Of a stretch of 64,000 nt of DNA, positions 11,173-32,314 are shown piece by piece. Source of the stretch: Clostridiales bacterium (lineage in GTDB: Bacteria; Bacillota; Clostridia; Christensenellales; Pumilibacteraceae); the NCBI GenBank assembly GCA_029070965.1, contig JAIEBI010000022.1, forward strand, positions 1-64,000. The letters are read 5' to 3'. The position numbers and the translations under genes are program-made. Each line of letters starts with the position of its first letter. Within the stretch, counting starts at the first letter, position 1. The notes under the pieces were generated by a model. That model saw nothing but the letters and a program-made list of their open reading frames with translations, had not been told where the DNA came from and did not search any database.

Positions 11173-11248
11173 GCTACTGTGGCTCAGTTGGTAGAGCAGC
11201 TGATTCGTAATCAGCAGGTCGGCGGTTCGAGTCCGCCCAGTAGCTCCA
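11173..11248 (+). tRNA. tRNA-Thr (CGT anticodon), CCA encoded
   Basis: Cloverleaf folded by eye: acceptor GCTACTG/CAGTAGC, anticodon arm GCTGA-TTCGTAA-TCAGC, T arm GGCGGTTCGAGTCCGCC. Confidence 0.93.
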
Positions 11249-11291
11249 AACGCCCCCTCATAAAGAGGGGGCGTTTTTAGCTACTGGGCGG
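11233..11291. repeat. Long palindrome spanning tRNA-Thr 3' end, terminator and inverted copy of tRNA 3' end
   Basis: CCGCCCAGTAGCTCCAAACGCCCCCTC / GAGGGGGCGTTTTTAGCTACTGGGCGG, 25 of 27 positions paired. Confidence 0.9.
11250..11278 (+). terminator. Intrinsic terminator after tRNA-Thr
   Basis: ACGCCCCCTC-ataaa-GAGGGGGCGTTTTT. Confidence 0.9.
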
Positions 11292-11324
11292 TATGACCGT
11301 GCGCCGCGTGTGCTTTGTTTAAAG

Positions 11325-31463: not shown

Positions 31464-31790
31464 TTACCACCTCGTTAAATTCTTTTGCTGTTTTTCTACG
31501 TAAATCTTTTTCAGTTCTTCGATGGAAATATTATAGCACAGCATAATGTCGTTAAAATACATGAGCACGTCGGCTAATTCTTCCGTAAAGTGTTCGCGCG
31601 TTTGGGCGTCGGTCATTATGGCGTCGTGCCCGCGCTTTTTTATTACGTCCGCAACCTCGCCAAGCTCGATCATTAGCCATAACAGCTTGTTTTTGCCGTT
31701 TTCGGGCGAAACGCTTTCCCACTTGTCTTTGTACTTTTCTTGCAAGCGCTTTTGCATATCCTGCATTTGCACAAAACCGAAATCTTCCAT
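31464..31790 (-). CDS. MazG-like nucleotide pyrophosphohydrolase
   Basis: LLWLMIELGEVADVIKKRG ... EELADVLMYFNDIM. Confidence 0.8.
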   Translation of the reverse strand: MEDFGFVQMQDMQKRLQEKYKDKWESVSPENGKNKLLWLMIELGEVADVIKKRGHDAIMTDAQTREHFTEELADVLMYFNDIMLCYNISIEELKKIYVEKQQKNLTRW

Positions 31791-31940
31791 AGCTCAGCAC
31801 TCCGTAAAATAATAACGTTAAGATAGATTGTAACACAGTCAAAGCGATATTGCAATACGCTCCAAAAAGAAAATTCCGCAAAAACATTGTTAAAATCTCT
31901 TGCCAAACAAAATAATCTTTGATATAATACATATTGCTAT

Positions 31941-32017
31941 GGCGGCATAGCTCAGCTGGCTAGAGTACTCGGTTCATACCCGATTGGTCACTGGTTCGAA
32001 TCCAGTTGCCGCTACCA
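31941..32017 (+). tRNA. tRNA-Met (CAT anticodon), elongator-like, CCA encoded
   Basis: GGCGGCATAGCTCAGCTGGC...TCGGTTCATACCCGA...ACTGGTTCGAATCCAGTTGCCGCTACCA. Confidence 0.93.
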
Positions 32018-32065
32018 ATACAAGGGCGTCCTACGGGACGCCTTTTGTATTGGTAGCGGCAACTG
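32003..32065. repeat. Long palindrome spanning tRNA-Met 3' end, terminator and inverted copy of tRNA 3' end
   Basis: CAGTTGCCGCTACCAATACAAGGGCGTCC / GGACGCCTTTTGTATTGGTAGCGGCAACTG. Confidence 0.9.
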
Positions 32066-32314
32066 TTTGCGCGAAACACCCGCAGTCTTGTTTGTAAATA
32101 TAGCGATAAATATTAATGATACAGTTTATTATGATAAACGACAAATATTATTCTGCGGGGGTTCGCTAGGCGCTCGGCGGAACGCCGAAGCCCGCCCGCG
32201 CAGTTCGCGGGCAATCCAGTTGCCGCCGTATCGTTTATGTACACGCGTTAATTCGAGCTTTATAATGTGCTTGCATTTATGCCGTGAATGTGATAATCTT
32301 AACACGAGGTAACA

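Follow-up and report, generated by a model that had tools for sequence, protein, structure and literature searches.

The tRNA-Met gene of the window (the whole stretch of 64,000 nucleotides analysed here, from a Clostridiales bacterium) is followed by a compact element with a characteristic anatomy, which recurs in the same genus at tRNAs of about 20 isoacceptors. Its ends match the tRNA that it follows, its hairpins covary, it forms tandem arrays at several loci, and one copy with foreign ends is found in another genus. We favour, with moderate confidence, the view that this is a miniature, gene-free integrative element that inserts in the T-loop of tRNA genes, regenerates the tRNA, works as folded DNA, and is moved, or was formerly moved, by a trans-acting recombinase.

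Genes for tRNA are the main docking sites of mobile DNA in prokaryotes, and the elements known to reside there are usually kilobases long, carry an integrase and use a single tRNA. If our reading is correct, the element would represent a new kind of tRNA-site passenger, 200 bp long, devoid of genes, fitted to some 20 isoacceptors and maintained as a fold. It would provide a compact natural test of the dependence of integration specificity on tRNA sequence, and of folded-DNA recombination in cells free of integrons; it would also account for recurring inverted tRNA ends that are otherwise taken as oddities of terminators. Among the papers searched, no described element of this form was found.

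Anatomy of the element at tRNA-Met and tRNA-Thr

The window contains only two tRNAs, Met and Thr. The Met locus has the following features.

31941-32017, + strand: intact tRNA-Met(CAT) (ARAGORN; Rfam RF00005), whose 3' end, nt 58-76 (31999-32017), has copies at other places in the element
32018-32050, + strand: T1, the element-side terminator hairpin, ATACAAGGGCGTCC TACG GGACGCCTTTTGTAT (from sequence, with position compared over loci)
32051-32065, - strand: A', tRNA nt 62-76 in inverted form (TGGTAGCGGCAACTG), directly adjoining the T1 palindrome (match to own tRNA established genus-wide)
32079-32159, + strand: P2, CCCGCAG (32079-32085) pairing with CTGCGGG (32153-32159) around an AT-rich loop (sequence reading and RNA fold; family-wide P2 covariation)
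32161-32168, + strand: near-invariant box GTTCGCTA in the interval between P2 and P3 (alignment; catalogue of copies)
32169-32193, + strand: P3 hairpin, GGCGCTCGGCG gaa CGCCGAAGCCC (compensatory changes)
32194-32212, + strand: P4 hairpin, GCCCGCG cagtt CGCGGGC (compensatory changes)
32148-32219, + strand: match to R1, the covariance model of the right half of the core, 82.4 bits
32213-32226, + strand: displaced A, direct copy of tRNA nt 58-71 (AATCCAGTTGCCGC), the right edge of the element (sequence; junction statistics)

Comparison of the same tRNAs across the genus gives the same order: T1, A', P2 with its long AT-rich loop, the box, P3, P4 and the direct copy A. The element is about 200-270 bp long, with no protein gene or ORF. 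In class A elements the strands of P2 are usually spaced by 69-72 nt, with an A-rich box in the loop at a fixed register, and P2 of the window is a variant of this type. The GTTCG inside the box equals tRNA T-loop nt 53-57, and may represent the second half of a T-loop that was split in two.

An earlier reading of the Met locus, made from the sequence alone, reported a palindrome of the tRNA 3' end, its terminator and an inverted copy, broken by a single bulge. The palindrome is real: an exact inverted repeat of 21 nt (32003-32023 with 32045-32065) extends through the terminator stem, where there is one extra base and one mismatch in place of the bulge. It is only the left edge of the feature, and the core and the direct copy at 32213-32226 had gone unnoticed. 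When the tRNA and the element are folded as single-stranded DNA, z = -11, to which the palindrome contributes much. The suggestion that the inverted copy is a relic of a convergent, tail-to-tail tRNA is disfavoured, as the minus strand beyond the copy has no tRNA body; the sequence there consists of the core, with its three covarying hairpins, and then a direct copy. Upstream of tRNA-Met, CATAGCTCAGC at about 31789-31799 is an 11-nt match to tRNA-Met nt 6-16, which may be a remnant of a 5' tRNA copy, or chance.

The same reading noted an inverted repeat at the other tRNA of the window, and this was confirmed at the Thr locus: 27 nt, 93% complementary (11233-11259 with 11265-11291). Here the element is truncated, and no R1 match representing the right half was found at this place when the window was searched.

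11173-11248, + strand: tRNA-Thr(CGT), carrying a truncated class B element
11249-11310, + strand: the remnant, consisting of the terminator (11249-11278), inverted copy AGCTACTGGGCGG (11279-11291) and 5' strand of P2, CCGTGCGCCGCG (11297-11308)

Recurrence across the genus and fit to the tRNA

The model R1 has 148 matches in 17 of the 20 genomes of the genus and no detectable match in the other three. Beyond the genus, a search of 297 genomes of the order found a single copy, in another genus of the same family. The catalogue comprises 146 distinct copies. For 74 of them an intact tRNA is found at most 200 nt upstream, and these tRNAs cover 20 isoacceptors. Another 16, mostly second or third copies, lie at 200-450 nt; 26 are at contig starts; and 27 have no tRNA within 700 nt, though for several of these the matching tRNA is located 0.8-3.2 kb upstream, with genes intervening. 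The assemblies are fragmented, and their breaks are often at tRNAs. Between tRNA and core there are in most cases 123-133 nt for class A and 90-96 nt for class B. Tandem arrays were observed at the tRNAs for Ile (L137, with units of about 267 nt), Leu (L143), Thr (L106/L149) and Tyr (L133). Searches for similar DNA in phages and plasmids found none, and a simple motif search with AGTAGCRCGSCG did not rise above its control.

Both ends of the element follow the tRNA at which it resides. In tests partly chosen post hoc, as were those on spacing, the inverted copy is closer to its own tRNA than to others in 67 of 74 cases, and the direct copy, which is at times too short to name the tRNA type unambiguously, in 73 of 74. 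The direct copy starts sharply: tRNA nt 54-57 are matched in 0-1% of cases, nt 58 in 97%, and nt 60-66 in 92-100%, with identity falling to the control level by nt 71-76. This places the junction at the 57|58 step of the T-loop. In the inverted copy, acceptor positions 67-76 are the better kept.

The genome of the window (1.81 Mb, 71 contigs, 37 tRNA matches) illustrates the relation between the inverted copy and the core. The core word has nine matches, each located either at a contig start or downstream of a tRNA. Six tRNAs, Ala-GGC, Glu-CTC, Met, Ser-TGA, Thr-CGT and Val-GAC, have an inverted copy of 11-17 nt directly past the terminator hairpin; the copies at Pro, Lys and Trp tRNAs are weaker. 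The sequence-only reading expected several unrelated tRNAs to have arms covarying with their own sequence, and would have given up its case had other tRNAs lacked inverted copies or had the copies not covaried; the six strong cases here and the 67 of 74 across the genus bear out the expectation. The inverted-copy score averages 10.0 at tRNAs with a core (n=10) and 5.6 at those without (n=23; p=0.0004). Three tRNAs have a high score without a core: Thr carries the truncated element and Val the left part only, whereas Pro-AGG is not assigned to the element. Inverted copies thus mainly accompany the element, since core-bearing tRNAs score higher and the Thr and Val cases are visibly truncated elements.

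These data bear on two earlier explanations. One is that template switching at the terminator hairpin (quasi-palindrome extension) inverts the tRNA 3' end, everything else being secondary. The terminator and inverted copy do form one contiguous palindrome, as in template-switch quasi-palindromes, and the better preservation of positions 67-76 agrees with such an origin. Yet the strong tie of inverted copies to the core or its remnants speaks against it, and template switching, which can make the A-terminator-A' palindrome, is unable to yield the core, the fixed spacing, or a direct copy with an abrupt beginning at nt 58; the palindrome here makes up no more than the left edge of the conserved element. 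As an account of the whole we regard it as highly unlikely; it may nevertheless help to keep the A-T1-A' palindrome perfect.

The other, a fail-safe in which the inverted copy pairs with the 3' half of the tRNA in a read-through transcript and blocks its folding, seems to us more improbable still. The single-strand fold of tRNA plus element does contain a long hairpin in which the inverted copy is paired to the tRNA 3' end. However, the inverted copy is weak or absent in half of the elements of the window's genome, and poor in many elements whose core is conserved (for example L027, L214, L226 and L245, with scores of 4-5 out of 17); most element-free tRNAs have no inverted copy, and the constrained part is the core. 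The fail-safe is disfavoured because the core is conserved where the inverted copy is weak.

Conservation of the fold

In the founding alignment of P3 and P4, two-sided changes are seen in 7 of 15 pairs. Over 143 distinct copies, Watson-Crick pairs make up 97% of the P3 and P4 cells; 24 cells are G-U and 13 are A-C. P2 was tested separately: among 103 nine-pair helices, 849 of 927 cells are Watson-Crick, 16 are G-U and 5 are A-C. The share of G-U is 7.8% in the acceptor and T stems of tRNAs at the same loci and 1-2% in P2-P4, i.e., about five times lower, which points to folding as DNA. G-U is somewhat more frequent than A-C (16:5 and 24:13); this fits the + strand as the folded one, and is compatible with RNA as well.

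The main competing explanation for a conserved fold is a structured RNA or transcription element, linked in cis and serving the host: read-through of the terminator would produce a P1-P4 RNA that acts on tRNA supply, on processing or on downstream genes. It is consistent with a core that is kept in place while the loops diverge, with copies mostly inherited at the same tRNA, with the G-U excess in the + strand sense, and with the RNA fold of the window core including the A'/A stem, which gives z = -4.8 and a structure of the P1-P4 type, P1 being A' paired with displaced A. Against it stand the rarity of G-U relative to tRNA stems of the same genomes, the location of the element behind a terminator, the three genomes of the genus with no detectable copy, and the Rfam search of the loci tested, where only tRNAs reached the gathering score. 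The set of Rfam families included T-box and group I and II introns, and likeness to a T-box or a group II intron was dismissed on the same ground. On balance we consider a host RNA unlikely.

Proposed integration and movement, and relation to known systems

In the mechanism that we prefer, integration into the tRNA gene, the element would lodge between tRNA nt 57 and 58. Its left end would bring a copy of nt 58-76 together with its own terminator, keeping the front tRNA whole, and would be followed by the inverted 3'-end copy and the P2-P3-P4 core, with the original nt 58 onward displaced to the right edge. The core would be recombined as folded single-stranded DNA, the T-loop identity block would be the site of crossover, and a recombinase supplied in trans would move, or would have moved, the element. 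The identity block would tie each lineage to one tRNA, and the sharing of core sequence within a genome would come from a common trans-acting factor or from gene conversion.

There is precedent for parts of this scheme. In tRNA islands (PMC4383910), a regenerated tRNA lies on one side and a displaced fragment on the other. For phage Ms6, crossover in the T-loop with regeneration of the tRNA is supported, and a 26-base core must be identical to the tRNA (PMC1762012). The element shares with such tRNA-targeted islands and prophages (the Islander rule; the Ms6 class) the regenerated tRNA at one end, the sharp displaced 3' fragment (nt 57|58) at the other, the T-loop junction and the tandem units. 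It differs from them in being about 200 bp long and gene-free, with no integrase of its own, in using about 20 isoacceptors, and in possessing, in addition, an inverted copy and a core of three covarying hairpins.

The copies might be deletion derivatives or att-site remnants of ordinary islands, inactive in themselves. This would suit the anatomy, which fits the island rule, and the defence and mobile genes that separate tRNA from core at several loci; but covarying hairpins and fixed spacing across many species require continued selection, and neither a full-length island combining this core with an integrase nor any other autonomous relative was found. Such an origin therefore appears improbable to us, somewhat more so than a host RNA.

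Genes between tRNA and core are seen at L222, L223, L233, L265, L241 and L219, and include a Thg1-like protein, an HNH protein resembling IscB, Shedu SduA, a radical SAM maturase, and, as judged by eye, a large serine recombinase and a peptidase. This gives the tRNA loci of the genus the look of hotspots for defence and mobile genes.

Integron attC sites are similar to the element in that structure is kept rather than sequence, in folded sites with covarying, nearly pure Watson-Crick arms, in tandem arrays, and in intervening genes at some loci. The element is, in contrast, anchored in tRNA T-loops and not at attI, and no integron integrase was found in the genus. A more specific version of our reading, which we put forward tentatively and hold to be doubtful, is an integron-like cassette system that recognises folded DNA and docks at tRNA T-loops, with one trans factor per genome, possibly a house-keeping XerS-like protein, serving about 20 parallel tRNA-specific lineages. 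MITEs and REP/REPIN sequences are likewise short, non-coding, palindromic, multicopy and presumably moved in trans. The element is distinguished from these by being bound to tRNA 3' ends instead of dispersed, by an inverted copy and direct repeats that are derived from the tRNA, and by the scarcity of Y1 transposase, which most carriers do not have.

Across the 20 genomes of the genus, no dedicated recombinase common to all carriers was found. A XerS-like tyrosine recombinase is present in nearly all of them, non-carriers too, and it is the sole tyrosine recombinase in G017 (15 copies), G014 and G031; the other proteins sampled are XerC-like. A tyrosine or integron integrase was rejected as the mover, as only the XerS-like protein is near-universal and the integron model scored far under its cut-off. 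Serine recombinases were rejected because they are absent in carriers G031, G011 and G013. The A58 boundary and the A-rich box in the P2 loop brought up the idea of a tRNA primer, as in a retron or tRNA-primed retroelement, and the GTAG before P2 that of a RAYT/REP system; both were rejected on the rarity of the enzymes, reverse transcriptase being present in 3 of the 20 genomes and Y1 transposase in 4 of 20, and the window's own genome has neither.

Most copies look inherited in place, because the nearest P2 loop nearly always sits at the same tRNA in another species. For P3 and P4, sequences at different tRNAs of one genome resemble each other more than they resemble those of other genomes (permutation p=0.001). 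The Met copy of the window and L213 have similar P2 loops (score 0.92) and different P3 stems, which suggests that parts are exchanged or converted. The only copy outside the genus (L188, genome G131) is behind a tRNA-Thr, and its direct end is identical at 16 of 19 positions to a tRNA-Arg(CCG) of the focal genus, while no tRNA of G131 matches at more than 13 of 19; this copy was probably acquired together with its ends. No clean empty/filled orthologous pair was found among the loci compared. One downstream module lies directly behind the tRNA at L068 (cf. L112) and behind displaced copies at L237 and L264, none of these being an exact orthologous pair.

Elements of class D (L227, L238, L230, L258, L259, L260, L169) have a left part of their own, CTCGTGAATACTGCG..AAAATG..CATTTT... 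This left part is common to different tRNAs (Thr/Ala 0.84 and Pro/Arg 0.74 alike), and these elements are the strongest candidates for having recently moved from one tRNA to another.

Several further arrangements of partial tRNA sequences were observed. A junction, ATTCGTTTTAGGTT followed by about 10 nt and the last 6-8 nt of the tRNA (CTACCA, CTCCGCCA), recurs ahead of second units at L182, L137 and L223, and would mark a further point of insertion, located in the acceptor end. On the 5' side there is a mirror feature: some intact Thr, Arg and Ile tRNAs have, 70-170 nt upstream, a partial copy of nt 1-18/19 that breaks off in the D-loop (L001 and L020 in the window's genome, and L099, L101, L103, L105, L108, L112, L115, L137, L173, L242 and L267). 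Such copies are found at 18 of 141 tRNAs, compared with 0.6% in the null, and at 12 of 65 tRNAs with a 3' element and 6 of 76 without (p=0.08). Possibly, they belong to an outer, split tRNA around the intact one. At L114, L107, L115 and L103, degenerate copies of tRNA-Thr contain the module ACTCGCTTCGCTCGTGCT(A/T)CG, inserted in the anticodon loop.
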